The translations under genes were made by a program, and so were the position numbers. DNA of 26,173 nucleotides, taken from IMG/VR virus record IMGVR_UViG_3300046010_002748, positions 1 to 26,173 of that record. One strand, 5' to 3'. The DNA is from a virus. Below the pieces are notes generated by a model that saw nothing but the letters and a program-made list of their open reading frames with translations, was not told the DNA's origin and made no database searches. Below are positions 5,996-26,173 of the stretch, one piece after another (within the stretch, counting starts at the first letter, position 1; the number at the start of each line of letters is the position of its first letter).

Positions 5996-5997
5996 AG

Positions 5998-7503
5998 ATG
6001 GCAGACCATAGTAAACCACTCAATACCAGTACCTATGTCAATTATACGACTGAAATTGACGCTAGATTTGATGATTTAACACTAGGCTTAGATTCAGCCT
6101 TAACTACGCCTACCAACTTGCCAACTAACGCAATCCGTTGGAATAGCACAACATTTAAACATCAACGGTGGAATGGTACTGTTTGGAATGATTTTACTCG
6201 ATACGACATCAACATCAATGGTACTGTCGGTGCTACAACTCCAAACACAGGCGCATTTACAACATTAAGTTCAACTGGCAATACAACGCTTGGTGATGCG
6301 TCTGCCGACACTTTAACAGTCAATGCTACTCCTACATTCAACGTAGCCATTCCAGCAGCGTCTGGCGGTACTGGCATCGCTTCTTACGCTATTGGCGATA
6401 TTATTTATGCTTCAGGTGCTACTGCATTTTCTAAACTTGCTGACGTTGCAACAGGTAACGCATTAATCTCTGGTGGTGTTGGCGTTGCTCCTGCCTATGG
6501 CAAGATTGGTCTTACTACGCATATCTCTGGAACTTTAGGTACTGCCAATGGTGGTACTAACTTAACTGCATTTACATCAGGCGGTGCTGTCTATGCAACA
6601 TCTACATCTGCATTAACTACTGGTACATTACCTGCCACTGCTGGTGGTACTGGGTTTGCATCTTATGCTATCGGTGATTTAGTTTTTGCATCTACAACTA
6701 CTGCATTATCAAAATTAGCTGACGTTGCTACTGGTAATGCGCTTATATCTGGTGGCGTTGGTACAGCTCCAGCTTACGGTAAGATTGGATTAACTACCCA
6801 TGTATCTGGTACATTGCCAGCTACAAGTGGAGGTACTGGTCAGACAACTTATGCAATTGGTGATTTATTAACTGGTGGAGCTACAAATACATTAACAAAA
6901 ATAGCAGATGTAGCGACTGGAAATGCTTTATTATCAGGTGGTGTAGGTGTTGCTCCTACTTATGGTAAAGTAGGATTAACAACTCATGTGTCAGGTGTTC
7001 TTCCTGTAGCAAACGGTGGTACAAACGTATCTACTGCTAGTATAGCAGCATTTAATAACATAACTGGCTATACTGCCACTGGTGCTACTGGTACAACAAG
7101 TACAAATATTGTATTCTCTACCTCACCAGTTTTAACCACACCAAACATAGGTAATGCTACAGCAACTACAGTAGCATCATCAGGATTTGTCGGAACATCT
7201 GCTACAGGTGCAATTGTTACTCCAGTTGGTACAACAGCAGAACGACCTACTGCTGTTCAAGGGATGGTAAGGTACAATACAACAAATGTATCTTTTGAAG
7301 GATATAATGGTACCATTTGGGGGTCAATAGGTGGCGGTGCTAAAGGCGGAAGCACGGATGACATTTTCTATGAAAATAGTAAAATAGTTACAACAAGTTA
7401 TACTATTACATCTAATAAAAATGCTATGACAACTGGGCCAGTTACATTAAATTCTGGTGTTATAGTTACAGTACCTACTGGCTCACGCTGGGTAGTTTTA
7501 TAA
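5998..7503 (+). CDS. Repetitive tail fibre protein
   Basis: A 501-residue structural protein, probably a fibre or side-fibre subunit attached to the tail tip. The N-terminal 120 residues contain a phage fibre-type segment ('RWNSTTFKHQRWNGTVW' pattern). Residues about 122-337 consist of three copies of a block of roughly 58 residues, each with GGTG, Y-AIGD, K-[LI]-ADVATGNAL, SGGVG, AP-YGK-[IV]-GLTTH and SG. The C-terminal part repeats a 'RYNTTN..FEGYNGTIWGSIGGG' segment, then ends in a short beta domain with 'NSGVIVTVPTGS'. Such glycine/threonine-rich repeats are common in fibres of aquatic phages and build extended beta structures. The ATG sits 2 bases after the upstream stop, with a purine-rich site inside the end of that gene, so translation is probably coupled. 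No chaperone or peptidase domain is visible. Function is by family resemblance; the receptor is unknown. Confidence 0.82.
   Translation: MADHSKPLNTSTYVNYTTEIDARFDDLTLGLDSALTTPTNLPTNAIRWNSTTFKHQRWNGTVWNDFTRYDININGTVGATTPNTGAFTTLSSTGNTTLGDASADTLTVNATPTFNVAIPAASGGTGIASYAIGDIIYASGATAFSKLADVATGNALISGGVGVAPAYGKIGLTTHISGTLGTANGGTNLTAFTSGGAVYATSTSALTTGTLPATAGGTGFASYAIGDLVFASTTTALSKLADVATGNALISGGVGTAPAYGKIGLTTHVSGTLPATSGGTGQTTYAIGDLLTGGATNTLTKIADVATGNALLSGGVGVAPTYGKVGLTTHVSGVLPVANGGTNVSTASIAAFNNITGYTATGATGTTSTNIVFSTSPVLTTPNIGNATATTVASSGFVGTSATGAIVTPVGTTAERPTAVQGMVRYNTTNVSFEGYNGTIWGSIGGGAKGGSTDDIFYENSKIVTTSYTITSNKNAMTTGPVTLNSGVIVTVPTGSRWVVL
6363..7010 (+). repeat. Three tandem protein-level repeats in the tail fibre gene
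   Basis: Blocks begin at about 6363, 6642 and 6828 (GGTG codons). Blocks 1 and 2 are separated by a partial block ('TANGGTN' at about 6541). Amino acids are nearly identical between blocks but third codon positions differ widely, so at DNA level the copies are well diverged. Confidence 0.75.
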
Positions 7504-9424: not shown

Positions 9425-9658
9425 ATGGATAACCAGTCAATCTTAAACATATTACTATCATCATCATCACTTGTTTTAGGCTGGTTTTTGCGTGAGATGT
9501 GGTCGGCAGTTAAAGAATTAAAAAGCGATTTAGCTAAACTTCGTGAGGAATTGCCAAAAGACTATGTTGCTCGTGATGATTACCGCCAAGATATTCGTGA
9601 GTTTAAAGAGATGTTAAATAAGTTGTTTGACAGGTTAGATACTAAGGTAGATAAATGA
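9425..9658 (+). CDS. Small membrane-anchored coiled-coil protein at head of lysis cassette
   Basis: A 77-residue protein with one hydrophobic segment near the N-terminus (about 6-23, rich in L, S, V) and a long charged helix after it ('KELKSDLAKLREEL', 'YRQDIREFKEMLNKLFDRLDTKV'). This layout fits holin-accessory proteins and inner-membrane spanins, and related proteins are common beside phage endolysins. The ribosome site is less obvious than for its neighbours (TTTAGGTACTTAATC before the ATG). The stop overlaps the endolysin start in ATGA. I infer an inner-membrane role in lysis; a choice between i-spanin and holin helper cannot be made from sequence alone, and the predicted coiled coil is short for a spanin that must cross the periplasm. 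Confidence 0.66.
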   Translation: MDNQSILNILLSSSSLVLGWFLREMWSAVKELKSDLAKLREELPKDYVARDDYRQDIREFKEMLNKLFDRLDTKVDK

Positions 9659-10071
9659 TTAACAGTCGTTCGCTTGATGAATTACATCCAAAAGTTAAAG
9701 CACTAGCAGAGCAGTTTAAAAAAGAATGTTTGGCCGCAGGGTTTGACATTCTTATTTATTCTACCTATCGAGATAATGAAGCTCAAGACGTTATCTATGC
9801 ACAAGGCAGAACCGCCAAAGGTAGGATAGTAACCAATGCAAAAGGCGGTCAATCATTCCATAATTACAGAGTTGCCTTCGATTGGGTGCCAATGCTTCAC
9901 GGTAAACCATTGTGGGATAATGATGTTATTTACGCAAAGTGTGGTAGGATAGGTGAATCAATAGGTCTTGAATGGGCTGGAAGATGGTCTGGTAAGATAA
10001 AAGAAACAGCTCACATGCAATATACTGGCGGATTATCGTTAGCTGATTTTCAAAAAGGAAAGACACTATGA
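9655..10071 (+). CDS. Endolysin, peptidase M15 (L-alanyl-D-glutamate peptidase type)
   Basis: A 138-residue single-domain peptidoglycan peptidase that cuts peptide stems of the cell wall during lysis. The M15/VanY-like metal site is visible: H69 and D76 in 'SFHNYRVAFD', and 'ETAH' with E117 as the likely catalytic base and H120 as the third zinc ligand. An arginine occupies the place where most relatives have glycine in the SxHxxG motif. There is no cell-wall-binding domain and no signal peptide, so export should depend on the holin encoded next. Length is normal for compact endolysins of Gram-negative phages. Start and stop both overlap neighbours (ATGA at 9655 and 10068), which ties it tightly to the upstream membrane protein and the downstream holin. 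Confidence 0.93.
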   Translation: MINSRSLDELHPKVKALAEQFKKECLAAGFDILIYSTYRDNEAQDVIYAQGRTAKGRIVTNAKGGQSFHNYRVAFDWVPMLHGKPLWDNDVIYAKCGRIGESIGLEWAGRWSGKIKETAHMQYTGGLSLADFQKGKTL

Positions 10072-10382
10072 ATAAATTAATAGCTTTATTTTCTGTATTT
10101 CGCAAAGGTAAAGAAGTTGCTAATCCTGAAGCATGGAAGAAAGGCCAAATCACTGGCTCAGTCATTGCAGGTCTATTGGCTGCTATTGTGGCTTTGGCTA
10201 AAGCATTTGGTTATGACTTGCCATTGTCTGATGCGGACATTCTTTCCATTGGCACTTCTATTGTTGTTATTGTCGGCTTGTTCATCAATCCAGCTATCAC
10301 TATCGCATCCAGCAAAAAAATTGGTGTGTCAACCACACATCCAACTGGAAGTGAATCCGCAAAAAGAATTATCGGTGGCTGA
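10068..10382 (+). CDS. Putative holin, two transmembrane helices
   Basis: A 104-residue protein with a basic N-terminus, a conserved-looking 'NPEAWKKGQITGSVIAG' stretch and two predicted membrane helices (about 29-47 and 59-79) linked by a short polar loop with 'YDLPLSDADI'. The tail is polar and ends 'SAKRIIGG'. Size, topology and the overlap with the endolysin stop (ATGA) support a class II-like holin that would permeabilise the inner membrane at a set time. I do not see a dual-start motif. A second, +1 reading frame overlaps its second half from 10231 and encodes a lipoprotein-like peptide (separate entry). After its stop there are 53 bases before the next conventional gene, which is unusual in this tightly packed region. 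Confidence 0.75.
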   Translation: MNKLIALFSVFRKGKEVANPEAWKKGQITGSVIAGLLAAIVALAKAFGYDLPLSDADILSIGTSIVVIVGLFINPAITIASSKKIGVSTTHPTGSESAKRIIGG

Positions 10383-14427: not shown

Positions 14428-16013
14428 TAAAATCTCCTGTCAATTACTCTTGCGTATTTACCATCCATCTTAAAATCAATTGTTTCTGGACAATTAGAAT
14501 TATTCATTGCGTGACAAATTGATTCTAATGAACTATGTGGTAAAAGGTGCGCTCCAGACTTCTTAGCAAGCAAAATAACAAGCTGTATAGCCTTTTGACC
14601 TGCCCATCCATCATGTTTTACGCACAGATATTCTGTCACTGGCTTATCAGATAAACCACCATAATACGTCACCTTCAGCATCTCTATCCCGCTCGTCTTG
14701 CTCAAATGCTTTGACCATTCCCAAGAACTTACATCAAGCTCGGTACCTCCTACTCCCATAATGTCATCATTACGGAGTTTTAATGGCGCCTTTTCTTCTT
14801 TAGGGAACTCATAAGAACATGCAGGACACACTGGAACGCTTATGTGTAAAATCTCATGGCATTGGTCACACATCTTAACTGGCGCTTCTCCTGAGCCTTC
14901 ACCGCGCTTCTTAGATTTGTCCTCAATGTTTACGTTGGTAATTGGGCCATGTGTCTGAACCACGCCAGCAAAGTCTAATACTAAGCAATGGTCAGTATGG
15001 CTTTTAGGTCGTAAGCCACGCCCTGCCATTTGCACATAAAGACTGGCCGATAATGTAGGCCGAAGCATGGCAATCAAGTCAATGTCAGGGTAATCAAACC
15101 CAGTTGTTAGCACGTCACAGTTAGTTAGCGCCTGAATTTTTCCAGCCTTATACTCATCTAAAATGCGTTTGCGTTCTGTCTTACTTGTATTACCTGTAAT
15201 ACATTCTGCCACAATGTTTCTTTTGAGCAACACATCTCTGACGTGGTAAGCATGGTCAACACCAGCGCAAAAGAACAACCAGGCTTTTCTGTCATCAGCC
15301 AATCTAATAACTTCATCAACTACGCTGTAGTTATTGTCATCATTATCAACGGCAGCCTGTAACTCTGATTCAATATACTCACCACCACGTTTGTGTACTC
15401 CATCTGTGGATAACTTTTTATCGGTTACTTTTGAACGAAGCGGAGCAAGGTATTTTTTATATATTAACTCCTCAATAGACACAGGCTCAATTAACTCATC
15501 AAACAATGCTGGCTTGTCAGTAATTAACCCATGGCCCAATCGATACGGTGTAGCGGACAATCCAATCACGCGGAGCATAGGATTAATCTCAATCAACTCT
15601 TTAATCAATGTGCGGTAGCCACCTTCATCTTTATGTGACACAAGGTGACATTCATCAATAATAATCAAGTCAACGTGACCAATCTCATGTGATCGATTAC
15701 GCACTGATTGGATACCAGCAAATGTAATGGCCTCACTCAACTCACGCTTGCCAATACTGGCTGAGTATATGCCCATCGGTGCATTTGGCCAATGTAGGCG
15801 CATCTTCTCAGCGTTCTGCTCAATCAGCTCCTTAACGTGAGTGAGCATTAACACACGAGTTTCAGGCCAGTTCTGTACTGCATCCTTACACAGTGCAGCG
15901 ACAATGTGACTCTTGCCTGATCCTGTCGGCAACACTAAGCATGGGTGGCCTTTGTTATTGGATAGCCACGCATAGAGTTCATCTATTGAGCGTTGTTGGT
16001 ATTCACGAAGCAT
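14427..16013 (-). CDS. SF2 DEAD/DEAH-type DNA helicase with C-terminal zinc ribbon
   Basis: A 528-residue superfamily 2 helicase. Motif I 'PTGSGKS' (about 29-35), motif II 'DECH' (120-123), motif III 'SATP' (153-156) and motif VI 'QMAGRGLRP' (328-336) are intact, and 'TTGFDYPDIDL' fits the motif V region. After the helicase core a CxxC/CxxC pair at about 382-399 ('CDQCHEI...CPAC') forms a zinc ribbon, followed by a C-terminal domain of about 125 residues. Relatives in phages are RadD/RecQ-like or type III restriction-like helicases used in replication fork or recombination processing. I use the start at 16013 because GAGGTG lies 4-8 bases upstream; 4 more codons are possible from 16025. It overlaps the methyltransferase by 11 bases and the VRR-NUC by TAATG. 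Confidence 0.92.
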   Translation of the reverse strand: MLREYQQRSIDELYAWLSNNKGHPCLVLPTGSGKSHIVAALCKDAVQNWPETRVLMLTHVKELIEQNAEKMRLHWPNAPMGIYSASIGKRELSEAITFAGIQSVRNRSHEIGHVDLIIIDECHLVSHKDEGGYRTLIKELIEINPMLRVIGLSATPYRLGHGLITDKPALFDELIEPVSIEELIYKKYLAPLRSKVTDKKLSTDGVHKRGGEYIESELQAAVDNDDNNYSVVDEVIRLADDRKAWLFFCAGVDHAYHVRDVLLKRNIVAECITGNTSKTERKRILDEYKAGKIQALTNCDVLTTGFDYPDIDLIAMLRPTLSASLYVQMAGRGLRPKSHTDHCLVLDFAGVVQTHGPITNVNIEDKSKKRGEGSGEAPVKMCDQCHEILHISVPVCPACSYEFPKEEKAPLKLRNDDIMGVGGTELDVSSWEWSKHLSKTSGIEMLKVTYYGGLSDKPVTEYLCVKHDGWAGQKAIQLVILLAKKSGAHLLPHSSLESICHAMNNSNCPETIDFKMDGKYARVIDRRF

Positions 16014-17202
16014 TTTCCACCTCATTTATTCTTTGACCAATCCATCTCATAACAGGAACCGCCATTGAGTTACCTAATGCTTTGTATCTATTTCCATCAG
16101 GTGTTTTGTCAAATATATTGGTATAGTTATCAGGAAATCCTTGCAGACGCTCACATTCAAGCGGAGTTAATCTACGTACTCTCATTTCATTAAATAATTG
16201 TTGGTCTTGGGTTGTTGATAATGTAAACGCCTTTTCATCTTGACCAAGATAACCTTTGCCACCACCCTCACAGCCACCTCTTATTTTAAATGTATGTGCA
16301 ATAGGAACATTGCCACCACCAGTTTCCCAACGTCTAGTTACAGTTTGACATATATCTCCCATCTCTTTTACCCTGCTATCAGCAGGATGTGTTTCATAAA
16401 CTGTAACTCCACTTCTTTGATTGCAAGTTAAAGTCCCTGATAAATTATTTTCAAATCTCATTTCATCAGGTCTAGCATTAACATTAAATGACATTGTTGC
16501 AACAAACAATCCACACTCATTACCTGATGGGCCACCGCTACCCTTAGCCCATTTGCTAGTTACGGTATCTGAACACTCTGGGTCTGCGCCACCATACGCA
16601 ACGCCTCCTCCAATTGGGGCGGTAGCGATTTTCCTCGACTTTCTGCTCTGCGAATTATTCCCTGACATGCTTTCGCGCTCAAATAATACTGAGGCAGCAC
16701 TTCGCCAATCTCCAAGACATCCGACAACAAAGACACGTTTGCGTCTTTGTGGGACTCCGAAGTGTTGAGCGTCAAGCACTCTGTAGGCGAACCCATACCC
16801 GAGTTCAGCCAACGCCCCGAGGAAGGAACCAAAGTCCCTTCCACCATTTGAACTGAGGACACCTGGCACGTTTTCCCACACAATCCATTTTGGCTTAAAA
16901 TGGTCAGCAATTCCAAGATAGACGAGTGCCAAGTTTCCACGAGGATCTTGAAGTCCTTTTCTAAGTCCTGCGACTGAGAAAGATTGACAGGGTGTTCCTC
17001 CCACGAGAATGTTGACTGGTTCATTTATATTCCACTCCTTAAATTTTGTCATGTCACCGAAATTGGTAACATTTGGATAATGATTTGCTAACACTTGACT
17101 AGGAAACTTCTCAATTTCTGAAAATCCAACAGGATTCCACCCCATGTCATGCCAAGCAGTTGTTGCTGCTTCTATTCCACTACATACGCTTAAATAGTTC
17201 AT
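16003..17202 (-). CDS. DNA (cytosine-5) methyltransferase, orphan
   Basis: A 399-residue C5-cytosine methyltransferase. Conserved motifs: I 'CSGIEAATTAW' for S-adenosylmethionine (about 7-17), IV 'GGTPCQSFS' with catalytic C72, VI 'WENVPG' with E110, VIII 'QRRKRVFVV' (152-160) and X 'GNSMAVPV' (377-384). The target-recognition region between VIII and IX is glycine-rich with four repeats of the type [DGQF]-T-[VL]-T/S. No restriction endonuclease gene is adjacent, so this is an orphan enzyme, presumably used to protect phage DNA from host restriction or to mark it. Its target site cannot be read from sequence. A second frame in the same strand overlaps bases 16560-17024. Start and stop overlap both neighbours (ATGA at 17202, 11 bases at 16003). 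Confidence 0.94.
   Translation of the reverse strand: MNYLSVCSGIEAATTAWHDMGWNPVGFSEIEKFPSQVLANHYPNVTNFGDMTKFKEWNINEPVNILVGGTPCQSFSVAGLRKGLQDPRGNLALVYLGIADHFKPKWIVWENVPGVLSSNGGRDFGSFLGALAELGYGFAYRVLDAQHFGVPQRRKRVFVVGCLGDWRSAASVLFERESMSGNNSQSRKSRKIATAPIGGGVAYGGADPECSDTVTSKWAKGSGGPSGNECGLFVATMSFNVNARPDEMRFENNLSGTLTCNQRSGVTVYETHPADSRVKEMGDICQTVTRRWETGGGNVPIAHTFKIRGGCEGGGKGYLGQDEKAFTLSTTQDQQLFNEMRVRRLTPLECERLQGFPDNYTNIFDKTPDGNRYKALGNSMAVPVMRWIGQRINEVENAS
16560..17024 (-). CDS. Overprinted ORF (+1 frame) inside the methyltransferase gene; recurrent phage protein type
   Basis: A 154-codon frame lies wholly inside the methyltransferase gene, same strand, +1 frame. AAGGAG (17040-17035) stands 10 bases before its ATG. 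Its C-terminal part ('PSSGRWLNSGMGSPTECLTL', 'LLSDVLE', 'QYYLSAKACQGIIRRAESRG', 'LPPQLEEAL') resembles, from memory, a type of phage protein annotated near cytosine methyltransferases in other phages. The C-terminal pattern looks like a folded helical domain and not like random translation. Because the methyltransferase frame is itself conserved here (motifs IV to VIII), apparent conservation of the second frame could be a by-product. No function is known. I list it as a possible gene and not as settled. Confidence 0.45.
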   Translation of the reverse strand: MNQSTFSWEEHPVNLSQSQDLEKDFKILVETWHSSILELLTILSQNGLCGKTCQVSSVQMVEGTLVPSSGRWLNSGMGSPTECLTLNTSESHKDANVSLLSDVLEIGEVLPQYYLSAKACQGIIRRAESRGKSLPPQLEEALRMVAQTQSVQIP

Positions 17203-20101: not shown

Positions 20102-20269
20102 ATGAAAACTAAAGAAGCAATTGATTATTTTGGTAGTTTAAAAAAATTAGCAGATGAGCTTGGCGTATGGCCTCAAGTAATTTATGGGTGGGGAGAATAT
20201 CCACCTAAGTCTAGGCAATATGAATTAGAAGTTAAAACTAATGGAACTCTTAAAGCAGAGGATAGATAA
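20102..20269 (+). CDS. cro: Cro-like repressor (P22 Cro family)
   Basis: A 55-residue DNA-binding protein with the P22-Cro pattern: 'KEAIDYFGSLKKLADELGVW' (helix-turn-helix, residues about 4-33), 'QVIYGWGEYPPKSRQYELEV' and a 'TNGTLKA' tail. It is the immediate early repressor that, in lambdoid systems, shuts down early promoters by binding operators around them. AGGA lies 6 bases before the ATG. It is divergent from the leftward operon, the classical cro position. No CI-like repressor gene is on the other side, so the classical switch is incomplete within this window. The stop shares a base with the next start (TAATG at 20267-20271). Confidence 0.85.
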   Translation: MKTKEAIDYFGSLKKLADELGVWPQVIYGWGEYPPKSRQYELEVKTNGTLKAEDR

Positions 20270-20766
20270 TGGAAAACCATTATGTTTATATAATCGAAAT
20301 TGATGGATATTGCAAAGTAGGAATAGCAAATAATTTAAAATTTAGATTAAATAGTTATAACAGCTCAAGTCCACATAATGTTAAATTAATTAAAACATTT
20401 ATTACTACTTCAAAAATGGATTCTGCTTTAATTGAAAAAAATATTCATAATAAATTAAAGTCATTTAATTTACATCATAAATTAGAGTGGTTTATAAAAG
20501 GTAGTTTGCAACAGGCAATTTTAATAGCTGATGAAGAATATAAGCAATATTTATTAGATGATAATCTAATTATTAATAATGAAATATATAATTCAGAACT
20601 TAAAAAAGTAGTAAATTTACTTTCAGATATAACAACAAATAAAGTATCAGAAGAAACAGGATTAAATAAACGTACAATTAATAGAATTAAAAATGGCAAA
20701 ACATTTCCAAACAAATCTACATTTAAATTATTGACCGATTACTTTAAGGCTAAAAATCATGGGTAA
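20269..20766 (+). CDS. GIY-YIG-like nuclease fused to a C-terminal HTH
   Basis: A 165-residue protein. The N-terminus has the GIY-YIG-like (Mug113/T5orf172-type) layout: 'HYVYIIEIDGYCKVGIANN' with the tyrosines in the first strand, 'KFRLNSYN' and a later 'ALIEKNIHNKL' helix with a glutamate. The C-terminal 45 residues ('TNKVSEETGLNKRTINRIKNG', then 'STFKLLTDYFK') form a clear XRE-type helix-turn-helix. Such a nuclease plus DNA reader fusion could be a homing-like or replication/defence factor. Its codons are the most AT-rich of the neighbourhood (many AAT, AAA, TTA). It is coupled to cro (TAATG) and overlaps the primase-helicase by 8 bases. The DNA target is unknown. Confidence 0.7.
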   Translation: MENHYVYIIEIDGYCKVGIANNLKFRLNSYNSSSPHNVKLIKTFITTSKMDSALIEKNIHNKLKSFNLHHKLEWFIKGSLQQAILIADEEYKQYLLDDNLIINNEIYNSELKKVVNLLSDITTNKVSEETGLNKRTINRIKNGKTFPNKSTFKLLTDYFKAKNHG

Positions 20767-22768
20767 CATCAAAAATATTATTGGTAGCTTTACGCCACCA
20801 GTAGAAAAGATTATTAAACCAGCAGAACAACAATTAATTGATTCAATGGTTGAGCATGGATTAACGCCACCTAGACATATATTAATAGATGGTAAGGTTC
20901 ATCGGTTCTGCACTAGCGGTAAGAAAGGTGACAGTGGTTGGTACATTGTATTTAGCGATGGCGTACCAGCAGGTCGGTTTGGTGATTGGCGGACAGGCAT
21001 CGAGGTATCCTTCAGGGCCGACATTGGTAGGTCGCTTACCATGGTTGAGGAGATGGCGAATACACGTAGAATGGTAGAAGCTCGCGCACTGCGTGAAGAA
21101 GAAGAAAAGCGTAAGCACGAATTGGCTGCTAATACGGTTGAACATATATGGTCAGGTGGGATGCACGCTGAGGCTGAACATTCTTATTTAAAGAAAAAAG
21201 GTATATATAGTCACGGTGCCAGGGTAACAGGCGATGGCCGTTTGATGTTGCCGTTGTTTAACGAAGAAGGGAAACTTTCATCTATACAATATATAGGTGA
21301 AGATGGCGATAAAAAATACCATGCAGGTGGCGCAACCTCAGAGTGCTATTGGTCACTAGGTGAGCCTAGCAAGATTATTTACATCGCAGAAGGCTTTGCT
21401 ACGGCTGCCACGATATTCGAGAACACGAACGAGCATACTATCGTAGCGTATAGCGCATCTAACCTAGTTCCTGTCACTCGTATCATCCGTGAGAAGTTTG
21501 GCGCAATGCAAGAGATTGTGATTGTGGCGGACAATGATGTATCTGGCGTAGGTCAGAAATACGCAGACCAAGCTAGTGCTAAGTATGGCGCTAAGGTAAT
21601 TATTCCGCCTGAGATTGGTGATGCTAATGATTATCTATTGGGTGGCGGTAACTTATCGGCCCTACTCAATCCACCTCAAGAAGAATGGTTGATGGCTGCC
21701 GATGGCTTCTCACAAAAGCCTTCTCCTATCTCATGGCTAGTGAAGAATTGGCTGCAAGAAAACGCTTTGGTTATGGTTCATGGGCCTAGTGGTGGCGGTA
21801 AGACATTCGTTGTATTGGATTGGTGCATGTCCATGGCTAGTGGCTTGCCTGAGTGGTCAGGTAATAAGGTTAAGAAGGCTAATGTTGTTTATTTGGCTGG
21901 TGAAGGCCATGCAGGGCTTAGAGGTCGTATTGCAGCATGGAAGCAAAACCGCAAGGTTAGTAAGATGGACATGTGGGTATCTAAATCAGGATGCGACCTT
22001 AATACATCACAAGGTTATCAACAGGTATCCGAGCAGTTACGAAGCATGCAGATACAGCCTGATGTCATTGTGGTTGATACATTGCATCGGTTTCTGAAAG
22101 GCGATGAGAACAGCGCACAGGATACTAAGACCATGCTAGACGCTTGTGCAGCTCTTATGATGGAGTTTAACTGCACGGTTATCCTAGTGCATCACACTGG
22201 CGTATCAGACGAAGCACAGCATCGAGCAAGGGGTTCTAGTGCATGGCGCGGTGCCTTAGAGATTGAGATTAGCATTGTGCCAGGTAAAGGCGATGCTCCT
22301 ATGGAGATTATTCAACGTAAGTCTAAGGATTCTGAGTTGGCGGAACCTTTGTATTGCACACTAGAGAGCGTGGCGATAGAGGGGTGGATAGATGAGGATG
22401 GCGAACCTGTTAAATCTGCTGTTATAGAGTTTGCCGATGCTCCAGTTAAGGCTAAGAAGAACTCCCCAGTTGAAGATAGAATGAAATTGTTTGAAAAAGT
22501 ATGGTTTGAATCAGGGGCAGAGCAAGGGGTAGGGGGTATGCCTATCATCTCACGTTCGGCTTTCGCTCAGTATTTGGAAGTTCATGGTTTGTATAAAAAT
22601 CAGGACAGTATTAAACAGGCATTAACACCATCAAAACTAGATGGAATTATTGGCATGTTGCAAAATTCAGAAATTATTAAATGCAATTGGAATGGTAAAA
22701 ATGTAGGTTCTTATGAGGTAATTAATGCAGAATTTGGCAGTCAACTTAACTTAAGGAAACCTAAATAA
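20759..22768 (+). CDS. Primase-helicase: TOPRIM domain plus RecA-fold helicase
   Basis: A 669-residue bifunctional replication protein. A TOPRIM-like centre is at about 205-262: 'IYIAEGF' with E211 and 'VADND' with D258 and D260. The RecA-like helicase core has Walker A 'GPSGGGKT' (342-349), Walker B 'VIVVDTLHRF' with D440 and the 'VHHTG' element (477-481). Residues about 570-669 form a C-terminal winged-helix-like tail ('SRSAFAQYLEVHG'). It would unwind DNA and make primers at the phage origin. It has no N-terminal zinc finger of the CHC2 type, so primer synthesis is less certain than DNA unwinding. It ends six bases before an array of GGTAAC repeats, the usual place for a self-encoded origin. 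Confidence 0.9.
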   Translation: MGNIKNIIGSFTPPVEKIIKPAEQQLIDSMVEHGLTPPRHILIDGKVHRFCTSGKKGDSGWYIVFSDGVPAGRFGDWRTGIEVSFRADIGRSLTMVEEMANTRRMVEARALREEEEKRKHELAANTVEHIWSGGMHAEAEHSYLKKKGIYSHGARVTGDGRLMLPLFNEEGKLSSIQYIGEDGDKKYHAGGATSECYWSLGEPSKIIYIAEGFATAATIFENTNEHTIVAYSASNLVPVTRIIREKFGAMQEIVIVADNDVSGVGQKYADQASAKYGAKVIIPPEIGDANDYLLGGGNLSALLNPPQEEWLMAADGFSQKPSPISWLVKNWLQENALVMVHGPSGGGKTFVVLDWCMSMASGLPEWSGNKVKKANVVYLAGEGHAGLRGRIAAWKQNRKVSKMDMWVSKSGCDLNTSQGYQQVSEQLRSMQIQPDVIVVDTLHRFLKGDENSAQDTKTMLDACAALMMEFNCTVILVHHTGVSDEAQHRARGSSAWRGALEIEISIVPGKGDAPMEIIQRKSKDSELAEPLYCTLESVAIEGWIDEDGEPVKSAVIEFADAPVKAKKNSPVEDRMKLFEKVWFESGAEQGVGGMPIISRSAFAQYLEVHGLYKNQDSIKQALTPSKLDGIIGMLQNSEIIKCNWNGKNVGSYEVINAEFGSQLNLRKPK

Positions 22769-22771
22769 TCT

Positions 22772-22884
22772 GGTAACTGTGGTAACTGGTGGTAACTGAC
22801 AGTTACCGTTACCAAAATGGGCAAAAGTATTTATATTTGGTAACTATGGTAACTACTCCCCTATAGGGGAGTTACCACGTTACC
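22772..22884. repeat. GGTAAC repeat array, putative origin or regulator binding region
   Basis: Nine copies of GGTAAC lie within 113 bases: direct at 22772, 22781, 22791, 22839 and 22848, inverted at 22801, 22808, 22870 and 22879. The first group ends in GGTAACTG-A-CAGTTACC (22791-22807), a near-perfect palindrome. The second flanks ACTCCCCTATAGGGGAGT (22855-22872), an 18-base perfect palindrome. Direct repeats are spaced 9-10 bases, close to one helical turn. Together with the AT-rich stretch after it, this resembles an iteron-type origin recognised by the preceding replication protein; an RNA-level or recombination role is also possible. Confidence 0.6.
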
Positions 22885-22923
22885 ATAAATGCAGCGATGA
22901 ATATTGACCTGAAATTTGAAAAA

Positions 22924-23081
22924 GGGAAACTTTGTATTTTATGGATAAGAAAGAGATTTTAATTTTATTGTTGGCTGCGATTGCTGACATCGTTTTAATC
23001 GTCAACGTGATTCACCACTGGTGAAATAATTTTTTTTCGTTTGGAATTTTTTTTAGGGAAACTTTTGAAAAGGGAAACTTT
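22924..23081 (+). repeat. Three copies of GGGAAACTTT
   Basis: GGGAAACTTT occurs at 22924-22933, 23056-23065 and 23072-23081, each preceded by A or AAA. The last two are 16 bases apart. Each copy is also a short imperfect inverted repeat (AAAGGGAAACTTT). Function unknown; they lie in the suspected origin region. Confidence 0.55.
22941..23024 (+). CDS. Possible 27-residue membrane microprotein
   Basis: A 27-codon frame ('MDKKEILILLLAAIADIVLI', ending 'VIHHW') with a charged start and one clean hydrophobic helix. It lies in the repeat-rich gap between the primase-helicase and the next promoter. The nearest purine-rich site, AAAGGG, is about 14 bases upstream, farther than usual, so expression is uncertain. 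Its composition resembles the small membrane proteins encoded after 23404. It may equally be a chance frame. Confidence 0.35.
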   Translation: MDKKEILILLLAAIADIVLIVNVIHHW

Positions 23082-23131
23082 GTGTTTTTGTAGAAAGGGT
23101 CAAAAATCTACCCGATTTGGTGGATTTGCTG

Positions 23132-23246
23132 AAAAAATAGGCAATTGTTCAATTTTTGCGTAAAAAATAGGCAATTGTTTAATAAAAATCAATAAATTGC
23201 TTAAAAAATAGGCAAAAAATGAATGAATTGCTTAAAAAATAAGCAA
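23132..23246. repeat. Phased A-tract repeats (AAAAAATAGGCAATTG units)
   Basis: AAAAAATAGGCAATTGTT is identical at 23132-23149 and 23162-23179. Shorter copies follow at 23203-23215 (AAAAAATAGGCAA) and 23234-23246 (AAAAAATAAGCAA). The starts are 30, 41 and 31 bases apart, near whole helical turns, so the A-tracts face the same side of the helix and the DNA should be curved. The segment is very AT-rich and lies between the GGTAAC array and a terminator, as expected for an unwinding element. Confidence 0.6.
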
Positions 23247-23254
23247 ATTGTAAT

Positions 23255-23281
23255 AAAAGCGCCTAAAAAGCGCTTTTTTTT
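23255..23281 (+). terminator. Rho-independent terminator after the primase-helicase unit
   Basis: AAAAGCGC (23255-23262) pairs perfectly with GCGCTTTT (23270-23277) around the loop CTAAAAA, and the T-run continues to 23281. The A-run on the left also gives a usable terminator for leftward transcripts. Confidence 0.8.
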
Positions 23282-23323
23282 GGTCTATACCTTTAAATAT
23301 ATATATAAACCCAAAAATAATTG

Positions 23324-23351
23324 TTTACTTTTATAAATACATGTTTATAAT
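23324..23351 (+). promoter_or_regulatory. Promoter of the microprotein operon
   Basis: TATAAT (23346-23351) is a perfect -10 box. TTTACT (23324-23329) is a 4-of-6 -35 box at 16 bases. ACATGT (23339-23344) lies between the boxes and could be an operator. Transcription would begin near 23358, about 46 bases before the first ATG. Confidence 0.6.
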
Positions 23352-23403
23352 GTGAAGCGTAAACAGTTTTTTTAAATAATTTTTTTAAACGAGGTATAGA
23401 AAA

Positions 23404-23571
23404 ATGAATTCACTAAATTTTGAGGTTCTTCTTTATTCTTTAATGGCTATCGGCCACTTTTTGCTTGGCGCTTTAAATGTAGATAACGGCTTAATTTTAA
23501 TCACTCAAATTTTAGGCGCTTGTTTTTGGCTTTATATGGCCATGGATTTATTGCAAATTGAAAGGGCTTAA
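23404..23571 (+). CDS. Small two-helix membrane protein
   Basis: A 55-residue protein ('MNSLNFEVLLYSLMAIGHFL', then 'LILITQILGACFWLYMAMDL', ending 'QIERA') with two predicted membrane helices separated by 'NVDN'. GAGGT lies about 9 bases before the ATG, behind the promoter at 23324-23351. It is the first of several small membrane proteins in an operon whose role is unknown. The last codons AGG-GCT-TAA double as the ribosome site of the next gene. Inner-membrane location is likely; a superinfection-exclusion or host-takeover role is only a guess. Confidence 0.62.
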   Translation: MNSLNFEVLLYSLMAIGHFLLGALNVDNGLILITQILGACFWLYMAMDLLQIERA

Positions 23572-23573
23572 TT

Positions 23574-23639
23574 ATGGGCTTGTTTTTTGTTGTCTTATCT
23601 GTTTTAGCAATTCTTTATTTTTTATATATGGAGGCTTAA
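23574..23639 (+). CDS. 21-residue single-helix membrane microprotein
   Basis: A 21-codon frame ('MGLFFVVLSVLAILYFLYME', then A) that is essentially one membrane helix. AAAGGG lies about 8 bases upstream, inside the end of the preceding gene. The gene ends with GAG-GCT-TAA, which supplies the GGAGG ribosome site for the next gene. The consistent spacing with its neighbours is the main evidence for translation. No family is known. Confidence 0.48.
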   Translation: MGLFFVVLSVLAILYFLYMEA

Positions 23640-23641
23640 AA

Positions 23642-23755
23642 ATGATTATGTATGATTTTAAAAATAATAAACCAGCAAGCGAAAAAATAAGCGCATGGGA
23701 ATATATAGGCGCTGTAAGTTTTATTTTAATAATGATTTTTCTAGTTATTTTATAG
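23642..23755 (+). CDS. 37-residue single-pass membrane protein
   Basis: A 37-residue protein with a polar, lysine-containing N-terminus ('MIMYDFKNNKPASEKISAWE') and one C-terminal membrane helix ('YIGAVSFILIMIFLVIL'). GGAGG lies 8 bases before the chosen ATG; a longer frame from 23558 lacks a site and would overlap two other genes, so I do not use it. Tail-anchored topology (N-in or C-in) is likely. No family recognised. Confidence 0.56.
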   Translation: MIMYDFKNNKPASEKISAWEYIGAVSFILIMIFLVIL

Positions 23756-23764
23756 GGGCTAAAA

Positions 23765-24631
23765 ATGAAAAAAGTATTTTCTAGCAATTCAGAGCTAATC
23801 CACGTATGGGCTAACAATAACGAGCCTGAAATATATAAAAGCGCTAATTCTGTTTCATGCCAGCATGGCCGCTTATTCTCTTATAACACGTGTATTGCTG
23901 AATTGGTAAACGATAGCCATGTTATTTTAAATAGCCATAGCTATAGCAATACCACTAGCAAGCATCAATCGCTCGCTCGCTCGGCTATCCATGGCCGCGA
24001 GTGCATAAGCCTTGATATCAGCAATTATAATCTAAGCACTTTAATTTTTGGCCAAGGCGATTTTGAGCGAGTGATTGTAAAGCCTAACGAAGCAAAGGCG
24101 GCCGAGTGGCTAGTTAAGGCCTCGCGCTCGAAAAAATACGCGGGATTATATAACGGCTTCGCTCTTTCAATTTTTAGCAGTCTTAAGGCCTATGCTGATT
24201 TAATTGGCTTAACTTATGAAACAAGTATAAGTGCCATTGATATATTGAGAAGCGATGCACTCGAAGCCGAGAAAAAGCAGAAGGCGCTCGAAAAAATCAG
24301 AAAAGCCGAGAAAATAGCCGAGCAAGCCGAGGCGCTTATTAAATGGCGGGCGGGCGAAAATGTTTATCACAATTTTGAGGTAACGGCCTTAAGAGTGCAT
24401 GGCAATGAAATACAGACCAGCCGAGGCGCTCGCATACCATTAGCCGAAGCCGTAAGAGCTTGGCCATTATTGCAAAAAATAGCATCAAGTGGCGAAGCGC
24501 TAAGGCCTGAGAATATGCGCCTTGGCTATTATCAAGTTAGCAGCATTAGCAGCGAGGCCTTAATTGTGGGCTGCCACGTCATACCAATGGCCGAGGTTTT
24601 AAACGTGGCTAGTGTTTTAAATCTTAACTAG
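23765..24631 (+). CDS. Conserved phage-type protein of unknown function, 288 residues
   Basis: A 288-residue protein. The first 110 residues resemble a phage family recognised from memory by 'VWANNNEPE', 'RLFSYNTCIAELV', 'VILNSHSYSNTTSKHQSLAR' and 'REC'; I cannot name it with certainty. Residues about 165-200 are a charged coiled coil ('EAEKKQKALEKIRKAEKIAE'). A C-terminal domain follows ('RVHGNEIQTSRGARIPLAEA', 'ENMRLGYYQVSSIS'). No membrane segment or catalytic motif is visible. The gene is unusually rich in GGCC, GCC and AGC codons compared with the tail genes. GGGG lies 6 bases before the ATG. It is probably an early protein acting with the small membrane proteins around it. Confidence 0.7.
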   Translation: MKKVFSSNSELIHVWANNNEPEIYKSANSVSCQHGRLFSYNTCIAELVNDSHVILNSHSYSNTTSKHQSLARSAIHGRECISLDISNYNLSTLIFGQGDFERVIVKPNEAKAAEWLVKASRSKKYAGLYNGFALSIFSSLKAYADLIGLTYETSISAIDILRSDALEAEKKQKALEKIRKAEKIAEQAEALIKWRAGENVYHNFEVTALRVHGNEIQTSRGARIPLAEAVRAWPLLQKIASSGEALRPENMRLGYYQVSSISSEALIVGCHVIPMAEVLNVASVLNLN

Positions 24632-24644
24632 CGGAGGTTTTATT

Positions 24645-24824
24645 ATGAAAAAATTATTTTTAATAACTGGCTATGATTCTTTTAATCATAAGAATATAAG
24701 CAAGTTTTTTACTTTACCTGGCCAGGCTTCTATTTTTGCCTTAACTTTAACAGATAGCAAAATGCACGTTTTAAATGGCTCAGATTATGTAAGTATTTTT
24801 AACGATTATTTAAAAGAGGCTTAA
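24645..24824 (+). CDS. Small soluble protein, unknown
   Basis: A 59-residue protein ('MKKLFLITGYDSFNHKNISK', later 'SIFALTLTDSKMHVLNGSDY') that looks like a compact alpha/beta fold. GGAGG lies 8 bases upstream of the ATG, a strong site. The end GAG-GCT-TAA contains the ribosome site of the following gene, the same arrangement as at 23639. No family is recognised. Expression is well supported by the junctions, function is not. Confidence 0.62.
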   Translation: MKKLFLITGYDSFNHKNISKFFTLPGQASIFALTLTDSKMHVLNGSDYVSIFNDYLKEA

Positions 24825-24826
24825 TT

Positions 24827-25492
24827 ATGAATAACTTTGACGTTTCGAGCAGTGGCGAAAATATCGAGCTTAATATTTTTTATGATACTGACTTAGCTCA
24901 GCTTTATTATAGTGAATTTGAAAGCGAAAATACTCGGCTAAGTTTTGGCCGTGACAATTTGCTTTTTTTAATTGGTGATTCTTCAGGCCCATATTATTCT
25001 AAGCTCGATTTATTGGCATTAAGTAAACAAGCGCTTTTTAATTTATGCTTAGATTATGAATTGATAGGCTATGGCGCTGGCTTAAATGATTATTTAAAAA
25101 GCGAGTATATATCAGACTTATTAAACATTAGCATTGAGCGGCATTATAAATACCTATTGGCCAATTATACTTGGCACGGCTTAGGTGAAAAGATAGCCCA
25201 CGATTATTATATAAGCCGAGGCTATAGCCAAGGCGATGCTGTCTATATTGTAAGCATCGATAAGCCTATAAATAACGAAAATAGGCGGGCCATAGATAAC
25301 ATATTATGGGATTCACCTATAAGCATATATGCCGATATAAACGGCCTAGAATTTTATACTGATGATTTTTTAGGCGATGATTATTATGTTTATAATGTTG
25401 ACGCTATAGCCGAGAAAATACGCGCCTTTGATATAAGTGACTATGCTAAGGCTTGGCTGATTAAAGCATTGCCAGCTCAGCCGAGTTATTAG
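24827..25492 (+). CDS. Unknown acidic protein, 221 residues
   Basis: A 221-residue acidic protein rich in aspartate and tyrosine, no membrane segment. Noticeable stretches are 'NIFYDTDLAQLYYSEFESEN', 'DYYISRGYSQGDAVYIVSID' and 'DDYYVYNVDAIAEKIRAFDI'. The 'RGYSQGDAVYI' stretch recalls unnamed phage proteins seen elsewhere (memory, not checked). The charge pattern could mimic DNA, as in some antirestriction proteins, but the identity is unknown. The start is 2 bases after the previous stop with GAGGCT as ribosome site. Eleven of thirteen glycine codons I read are GGC, unlike the tail region. Confidence 0.66.
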   Translation: MNNFDVSSSGENIELNIFYDTDLAQLYYSEFESENTRLSFGRDNLLFLIGDSSGPYYSKLDLLALSKQALFNLCLDYELIGYGAGLNDYLKSEYISDLLNISIERHYKYLLANYTWHGLGEKIAHDYYISRGYSQGDAVYIVSIDKPINNENRRAIDNILWDSPISIYADINGLEFYTDDFLGDDYYVYNVDAIAEKIRAFDISDYAKAWLIKALPAQPSY

Positions 25493-25495
25493 CTT

Positions 25496-25594
25496 ATGAT
25501 TCTATACGCGCTTAGGTTTATCTTTTTAATTCTATTTAAATCAATTTGCTTAATTCTCTTAGTATTCATAGCCTTTCTTAATCTACCAGAATAA
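25496..25594 (+). CDS. 32-residue membrane microprotein
   Basis: A 32-codon frame ('MILYALRFIFLILFKSICLI', 'LLVFIAFLNLPE') that is one long hydrophobic helix with two basic residues. It starts 3 bases after the stop of the 221-residue gene, with only a weak GAG before it, and ends 8 bases before a terminator. Position at the end of the operon supports it; the weak ribosome site is the main doubt. Confidence 0.42.
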   Translation: MILYALRFIFLILFKSICLILLVFIAFLNLPE

Positions 25595-25602
25595 ACACTT
25601 AG

Positions 25603-25625
25603 CCCGCCTTGCGCGGGTTTTTTTT
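25603..25625 (+). terminator. Rho-independent terminator
   Basis: CCCGC (25603-25607), loop CTTGC, GCGGG (25613-25617), then eight T. It ends the microprotein operon. The stem is GC-rich, the strongest terminator hairpin in the window. Confidence 0.85.
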
Positions 25626-25635
25626 CGCCTATACA

Positions 25636-25956
25636 ATGGCGCCCATGTTTAAAGCAAGCGCCTACCATTATCTATACAGCTCGGCCCAATGGCTAAGGCT
25701 TCGCCATTATCAGTTACAATCTAGCCCACTTTGCGCCCTATGCGAAGCGCAAGGTATAACCAGCGCGGCAAGCATAGCAGACCATATAAAGCCACATAAA
25801 GGCGATAAAGAGCTTTTCTATAATGCCGCTAACCTACAATCATTATGCAAGCCTTGCCATGATAAGCACAAGCGCATAAAAGAATTGCGCGGCATAATGC
25901 GCGGCCATGATTTAAACGGCTGGCCGCTCGATAACGATAGTCACTTCATTAAATAG
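25636..25956 (+). CDS. HNH endonuclease, packaging-module type
   Basis: A 106-residue HNH nuclease. Zinc-binding and catalytic elements: 'CALC' (C33, C36), 'ADHIKPH' with D49/H50, 'NLQSLCKPCHDKHK' with N66, C71, C74, H75. Stand-alone HNH proteins of this size commonly lie directly before the small and large terminase genes and help terminase make packaging cuts. ATG at 25636 is used; 25645 is possible. The gene starts 10 bases after the terminator and shows no ribosome site, so it may need its own promoter, or read-through. The terminase genes, if present, lie beyond the right edge. Confidence 0.85.
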   Translation: MAPMFKASAYHYLYSSAQWLRLRHYQLQSSPLCALCEAQGITSAASIADHIKPHKGDKELFYNAANLQSLCKPCHDKHKRIKELRGIMRGHDLNGWPLDNDSHFIK

Positions 25957-26162
25957 CCGCGCTTTAATCATCGCATTACATTATCTAATCTTAAGCATAT
26001 ATCTATGACGCATTTTAAGCCGTTTTAAGCCGTTTTAATTCTAACCTATGCAATGGTATTGCCGCGATTTTTGCGCCTTGCTATGGCCTCAGCAGGTATG
26101 CCAAAATGCAGGGGCTGGCCATAAAGTAAAAGTTTTTTTTCACTTACTACCGCCTCCGACCC
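25957..26162. other. Right-edge gap without a confident gene
   Basis: About 200 bases with no convincing coding frame. TTTTAAGCCG is repeated at 26013-26022 and 26023-26032 with a partial third copy (TTTTAA). A frame from 26048 is open to the edge but enters the adapter bases. In related phages the terminase small subunit begins in this position, so the gap may hold a packaging site or its leader. Confidence 0.4.
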
Positions 26163-26173
26163 AGATCGGAAGA
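26163..26173 (+). other. Sequencing adapter remnant
   Basis: The last 11 bases, AGATCGGAAGA, equal the first bases of the common Illumina TruSeq adapter. They sit exactly at the sequence end and should be removed from any biological analysis. Confidence 0.85.

Follow-up and report, generated by a model that had tools for sequence, protein, structure and literature searches.

Small genes that are read early lie at the entering end of the genome in the class I early region of T7-like phages and in the first-step-transfer DNA of T5-like phages. In phages of the lambda type, packaging finishes with the end opposite the terminase genes, and this end is the first to enter the host. The first-step transfer of T5 is mentioned in PMC3556154. 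In HK97, the HNH protein promotes cos cleavage, and the 3' overhangs are given as 10 nucleotides (nt) in a figure legend and as 12 nt in the discussion (PMC9410871). The early-entering genes in the leading regions of conjugative plasmids are enriched for anti-defence functions (PMC11541004). An infection time course also exists for phiCbK (PMC10688885). Here, a seven-gene operon (positions 23404-25594) was analysed in the virus record IMGVR_UViG_3300046010_002748; this record is a fragment of 26,173 bases, and its full length is called the window. The borders of the locus are constant among relatives, and the genes inside are exchanged. On balance, the operon is probably a cassette of accessory genes that is expressed early and serves host takeover or counter-defence.

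All seven frames listed in the initial annotation are present between a promoter and a terminator, at the positions and sizes claimed (Table 1). The gene order is p55-p21-p37-p288-p59-p221-p32, and the successive gaps are 2, 2, 9, 13, 2, and 3 nt. Translation in the operon is probably coupled, because the gaps are only 2 to 13 nt. The operon also looks insulated, because one terminator stands ahead of the promoter and another follows p32. The earlier description of a compact, self-contained unit is borne out by these elements, which are kept in relatives. TATAAT or TACAAT was found at about the promoter position in all six aligned loci. In a scan of the window, the bare patterns were not more frequent than in shuffled sequences (promoters, 15 versus 13.1 expected; terminators, 6 versus 4.3 expected); despite these counts, both the promoter and the terminator recur at equivalent positions in relatives. 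No RNA element was matched by Rfam in 22700-26173, and a tRNA search found none. The seven genes gave no match in Pfam, NCBIfam, or PADLOC, and p288 and p221 belong to PHROGs of unknown function; as first proposed, none of the seven has a known function.

A search for close DNA relatives of the window among phage records found none. A scan based on the primase gene gave 25 loci. Three of them (L006, L007, and L008) carry orf27, p32, and the HNH endonuclease gene, with the locus lying between the primase and HNH genes; L030 is cut off within the primase. The other 21 loci (primase identity 57-60%) contain no operon gene at E 0.01; several of them, however, are short enough that they may end ahead of the relevant position. 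The close group aligns at the left, to about the promoter, and at the right, through p32, the terminator, the HNH gene, and the end; the middle does not align. L007 has the order p55-p21-p37-p288, seven other small genes, and p32; L008 has p37-p288, a 70-residue gene, p221, and p32; L006 has p37, eight other genes, and p32. A different backbone is represented by L005, where the locus lacks this primase and the record lacks this HNH gene. It carries p37-p288, then relatives of the three L007 inner genes c4, c1, and c3 in another order, a relative of one L006 gene, and p221. Other relatives of inner genes are scattered: L121 holds an L006c2 relative beside p221, L054 holds an L008c1 relative, and L056, L057, and L099 hold L007c3 relatives. 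An equivalent place was found in L123, which has a more distant primase, p221, the HNH gene, and the end; L056 has p288 and the HNH gene at a contig end. Movement of the block as one unit among phages, a check proposed with the initial annotation, is ruled out: the ends are constant, and the inner genes are gained, lost, and reordered. These inner genes are exchanged one by one between relatives.

An operon with its own promoter and terminator (known here from sequence only), with small membrane proteins and with content replaced between relatives, might also consist of lysogenic conversion genes (morons), expressed from the prophage to exclude other phages. However, the tyrosine integrase (PF00589) and serine resolvase (PF00239) models each matched in none of six records; these include the window record, which is a fragment, and two of 42.0 and 43.4 kb that seemingly hold both ends. 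The failure to find an integrase in these six records speaks against lysogenic conversion, which we consider very unlikely.

Some cassette contents and neighbours were observed in single records. The 229-residue cassette protein of L006 (10091-10780) belongs to phrog_11344; the relatives listed for this family come from Gordonia and Mycobacterium phages and are located close to the record ends. After the operon terminator of L005, a tandem array of the 8-base unit AGCCTATC occupies 5775-6160, with about 45 copies by eye. In Idiomarinaceae phage 1N2-2 (L136, 6273-6578), a MazG-like pyrophosphatase gene follows the primase at the record end, so that this slot is occupied by yet another accessory gene.

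The right border of the locus lies close to a genome end. The distance from the HNH stop to the contig end is 198, 198, 174, 127, 174, and 177 bases in six of the eight records examined; no HNH gene was matched in the remaining two. At the left ends of all four fetched records, a short leader precedes TerS-, TerL-, and portal-like open reading frames (ORFs; read by eye), and the left-end stretch of L007 matched the PAJU2 terminase gene in a DNA search. The locus thus abuts the genome terminus, because the HNH gene is 127-198 bases from the end and terminase-like genes lie opposite. On the right, the L007, L008, and L006 records all terminate at one base, homologous to window position 26150. 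The L007 and L008 records stop at ACTAC on the right and start with CCTCT on the left. The window carries CGCCTCCGAC after ACTAC, and this stretch is absent from all eight records; the L056 record has ACTACCGCCCCCGACCCCTTCTTT, 24 bases with a similar core, at both ends. A 10-nt cohesive end would explain this most simply: CGCCTCCGAC would be missing from most assemblies because a 3' overhang would be lost. The last 11 bases of the window are probably not phage DNA, because AGATCGGAAGA looks like the first bases of a widely used sequencing adapter. We infer a cos-type tailed-phage genome of roughly 42-43 kb, with the size taken from two relatives.

This position, beside the HNH gene and, across cos, the terminase-like genes, might instead suggest that the operon is expressed late and takes part in packaging or lysis. 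Its several small hydrophobic proteins would then be holin- or antiholin-like, and transcription after circularisation would run into TerS and TerL. Such an assignment is unlikely: a terminator is retained between the operon and the HNH gene; unlike packaging genes, the content is swapped wholesale; the region 9655-10382 already encodes an endolysin-like VanY/M15 peptidase together with a membrane protein; and some p288 relatives lie in T7-like early regions and in terminal repeats.

The p288 protein provides the widest comparison. Its match to the PHROG 7247 profile consists of two stretches, the better one at residues 106-286; its relatives are full-length, and all 57 family members tested match this PHROG. 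A scan of IMG/VR with eleven p288 relatives gave 188 relatives, of which 80 were kept. Eight residues (H13, S39, Y40, T64, R210, T218, C270, and H271) are invariant across the 57 aligned members. The predicted model is confident, with a predicted local distance difference test score (pLDDT) of 93.6 and a predicted template modelling score of 0.68; in it, long helices connect an alpha-beta part at one end with another at the other end. An internal repeat between the two ends was considered and dropped, as the profile comparison was negative. The fold search of the PDB gave no match at E <= 0.001 (best E 0.64). The best hit of the VIA fold search (Z 6.0, root-mean-square deviation (rmsd) 4.6, 68 residues) lies in the helical part and is not meaningful; the fold comparisons hardly covered the N- and C-terminal parts. 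In BFVD, some viral proteins of similar structure are labelled DUF8033. The Pfam DUF8033 model matched none of the 57 members at E 0.01, its presence in the Pfam copy used being uncertain; a literature search for DUF8033 found no paper, which is not a claim of absence from print.

Members of PHROG 7247 occur in phiCbK-like phages, Autographiviridae, and Achromobacter and Brevundimonas phages. In phages of the phiCbK group (Ccr5, Karma, CcrBL10, Magneto, and others), the p288 relatives lie inside the terminal repeats. In RHEph01 the relative is 1.1 kb from the genome end, and in Limnohabitans phage YIMV22061 it is between the terminase gene and a T7-type RNA polymerase gene.

From this observed architecture, we infer the timing and function of the operon as follows. 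The locus would be a place for accessory genes at the right physical end of the genome, organized as a single insulated operon that has a host-type promoter of its own. If the end away from the terminase enters first, the operon would lie within about 3 kb of the first-entering DNA and would therefore be read early, by host RNA polymerase at once after entry. The soluble proteins p288, p221, and p59, or their replacements, may act on host targets or defences; the small membrane proteins may act in the inner membrane, with p32 as the constant one. If the effectors needed differ from host to host, the inner genes should turn over.

The initial annotation had guessed at host takeover, superinfection exclusion, or antidefence. 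No domain, fold, or defence-library match speaks for any of these, but an early accessory role is made likelier by the genome-end position, the turnover, and the location of p288 relatives in an early or a terminal region of some named phages. Among contigs of at least 20 kb, 19 of 41 p288 relatives (from the 80 kept of 188) lie within 10% of a contig end versus 8.2 expected (p 1.3e-4; the close relatives of the window account for two of these 19 and for three of all 41); these positions are non-independent and may be assembly ends, and the ends of circular records are arbitrary. This caveat weighs against early expression from an entering end, as do several other points. The remaining 22 of the 41 relatives are away from contig ends, and PMBT3, Poludnitsa, BabaJaga, and Leszy carry a p288 relative well inside the genome. 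The direction of DNA entry is an assumption. Searches of Pfam, NCBIfam, PADLOC, and the PDB (by sequence and fold) gave no significant link between any operon product and known proteins of takeover or anti-defence, the PADLOC models being for defence and not counter-defence. A plasmid search found neither p288 nor p221.

Selection on the frames was analysed by comparing codons between the four syntenic loci (window, L006, L007, and L008) and L005, using the ratio of nonsynonymous to synonymous substitution rates (dN/dS). Changes in p288 (dN/dS 0.13-0.19) and in p221 (0.27-0.39) are mostly synonymous. The p32 protein is identical in L007; its dN/dS is 0.05 between the window and L008, and about 17 of 25 changes between the window and L006 are synonymous (binomial p 2e-6). 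The orf27 frame is present in all four syntenic loci, with dN/dS of 0.00-0.15 where computable; 6 of 6 changes between L008 and L006 are synonymous (p 6e-5). Conservation of the small frames, on which the earlier proposal depended, was thus found for p32, p55, and p37 but not for all. Among the loci compared, p55 has a homologue in L007 only, and p59 has none. The p21 frame has one close homologue, also in L007 only, and three substitutions are too few to judge selection. The p37 frame is conserved in four other loci but drifts (dN/dS 0.14-0.67), and selection on it is weak or non-significant (p 0.04-0.13 across three pairs tested).

The high turnover, the orphan p59, and the unjudgeable p21 might be expected at a neutral terminal hotspot, where genes would accumulate through tolerated recombination close to the end and would mostly bring no benefit. 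Purifying selection on p32, orf27, p55, p288, and p221, together with retention of the p288 family over large divergence (57 members aligned, eight invariant residues), makes this highly improbable.

The small membrane proteins show partial regularities of position. A p37-like motif, W[DE]xhGA, occurs directly 5' of p288 in 8 of 88 loci versus 0 of 1386 control windows; three of the eight loci are of this clade, and L006 retains p37 without p288. A membrane microORF as a constant partner 5' of p288 was rejected, with only 9 of 66 loci versus 3 of 114 controls (p 0.006). Judged by motif and position, the pairing of p37-like proteins with p288 is real in part of the p288 family and is no rule. 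The last ORF before the terminator encodes a hydrophobic protein of 23-33 residues in seven of seven hand-picked loci of the clade; the background for such hydrophobicity is 31 of 509 ORFs of 20-50 codons. Four of these seven are p32 itself, and that of L056 looks related by eye; the last ORFs of L123 and L005 may be analogues. The idea that cos-type HNH genes generally have such a terminal membrane microprotein as a partner was rejected, as one was found at only 4 of 72 other non-redundant HNH loci (drawn from the 80 kept of 506 relatives) versus 1 of 583 control positions; it is enriched, not general. The idea that the first ORF of the operon always encodes a membrane protein was also dropped: all six named first ORFs are hydrophobic but were hand-chosen, and L008 is a probable counter-case, with a 48-residue ORF (L003 4717-4863) that does not look membrane-like and is probably first in the cassette.

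A more specific form of the early accessory role may be proposed for p32 and p288. The locus would be a module dedicated to the entering end. The p32 protein would be made in the first minutes and work at the inner membrane, where it might counter superinfection or aid DNA entry; p37-like proteins would partner p288, whose widespread family, with its invariant His, Ser-Tyr, Thr, Arg, and Cys-His residues, would be enzyme-like and disarm a host function shared by many bacteria. This scheme is speculative and, taken as a whole, unlikely.

The p221 protein has 28-34% identity to the PHROG 25822 members of Vibrio phage R01 and Acinetobacter phage Acibel004 in the alignment. Its predicted model is middling (pLDDT 77, eight sequences), and the best hit of the fold search (E 0.31) is not meaningful. 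For residues 57-107, the top ten VIA fold hits are all Rho (Z 4.9-5.4, 44-47 residues, rmsd 2.5-2.8), and further rows include 3'hExo and T4 endonuclease VII. These proteins share the SAP fold. A SAP domain in p221 has no sequence support; residues 57-107 are a possible SAP-like segment of weak resemblance.

Between the primase gene and the operon, orf27 and two groups of repeats were found. The repeat GGGAAACTTTGTRTTTT has two exact copies, a number reached in none of 100 shuffles, and similar copies were seen in the L123 sequence. The TTGCNTAAAAAATARGCAA repeat has four copies (shuffles: mean 0.23, largest 3, none of 100 with four), and copies are also present in L006-L008. The iteron-like and GGGAAACTTTG repeats at 22924-23246 could be a replication origin or operators for the helix-turn-helix (HTH) protein described below. 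If the repeats and the primase marked an origin, the operon products might help replication. The conservation of the repeats and orf27 between primase and operon, and the possible SAP-like nucleic-acid-binding segment of p221 (Z 5.4, 46 residues, rmsd 2.7), are consistent with such a replication-linked unit. However, the gene content varies while the primase and repeats stay, p288 occurs without this primase being found (L005) and in T7-like phages, and the SAP assignment lacks sequence support; a role in replication is quite unlikely.

Upstream of the primase, a GIY-YIG/T5orf172-like domain is fused to an HTH regulator (20269-20766), and this gene overlaps the primase start. Distant relatives match the HTH part only, and named phages carry a short regulator there. 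Elsewhere in the window, a 154-residue frame (16560-17024, minus strand) lies inside the cytosine methyltransferase gene (16003-17202), on the same strand in another frame. It matches phrog_16143 (E 1.4e-10) and is a possible overlapping gene.

Table 1. Features of the operon and its surroundings in the window.
Feature	Position	Strand	Basis or remark
Primase-helicase gene	20759-22768		Toprim + AAA domains
Repeat GGGAAACTTTGTRTTTT, copy 1	22924..22940	+	17 bp
orf27, 27-residue membrane microprotein, 5' of the four 19-bp repeats	22941..23024	+	Overlooked in the initial annotation
Repeat GGGAAACTTTGTRTTTT, copy 2	23072..23088	+	17 bp
Repeat TTGCNTAAAAAATARGCAA, four 19-bp near-palindromic copies that resemble iterons or operators	23126..23246	+	Overlooked in the initial annotation
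Upstream terminator, insulating the operon	23255..23277	+	Hairpin + T run; position kept in relatives, sequence differs in L005
Sigma-70-like promoter	23324..23351	+	TTTACT-16-TATAAT, 10/12
p55, hydrophobic membrane protein	23404..23571	+	dN/dS 0.21, p 0.002
p21, possible membrane microprotein, weakest frame	23574..23639	+	Open reading frame
p37, single-transmembrane-like microprotein directly 5' of p288	23642..23755	+	Homologues in L005-L008
p288, PHROG 7247 member	23765..24631	+	Profile match E 1.7e-30
p59, soluble, orphan	24645..24824	+	Open reading frame
p221, PHROG 25822 member	24827..25492	+	Profile E 2.6e-18, residues 9-197
p32, conserved single-transmembrane-like microprotein, last operon gene	25496..25594	+	dN/dS, synteny
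Operon terminator	25601..25619	+	Recurs at equivalent place in relatives
HNH endonuclease gene, constant 3' neighbour outside the operon	25636..25956	+	PF01844, 28.5 bits, cut-off 21.4
Genome end, putative cos overhang	26146..26162	.	ACTAC, 10-nt CGCCTCCGAC, CC; overlooked in the initial annotation (26150/26160)
Probable sequencing-adapter remnant AGATCGGAAGA	26163..26173	.	Not at relatives' ends

The locus is ordinary in kind; the p288 family and p32 are worth testing. Phages may store host-specific early genes in terminal cassette loci of this type, which would therefore be a good hunting ground for new counter-defence or takeover proteins. Because the promoter and terminator borders are fixed, the variable genes of any relative can be read directly. 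The locus also offers small, well-defined targets: for p288, a single scan yielded at least 188 relatives, and the PDB fold search gave nothing significant; p32 is a 32-residue membrane protein under strong selection.

In comparison with HK97, the locus shares the HNH gene beside the end, the terminase-like genes opposite, and a 10-nt stretch missing between contig ends; the difference is that the overhang type here is read from assemblies. A neighbouring operon is not a known feature of HK97. The PHROG 25822 phages R01 and Acibel004 have larger genomes (75.5 and 99.7 kb). As in the leading regions of conjugative plasmids, uncharacterised, exchangeable genes lie in the DNA that would enter first; here, however, a phage is concerned, the DNA would enter double-stranded, and no known anti-defence gene was found. 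The differences from T7-like phages are that a polymerase of the T7 type was not noticed in the window and that its end resembles a cos site rather than a terminal repeat; the likeness lies in the p288 relatives, which occur near the early region in two Autographiviridae and in phiCbK-like terminal repeats.

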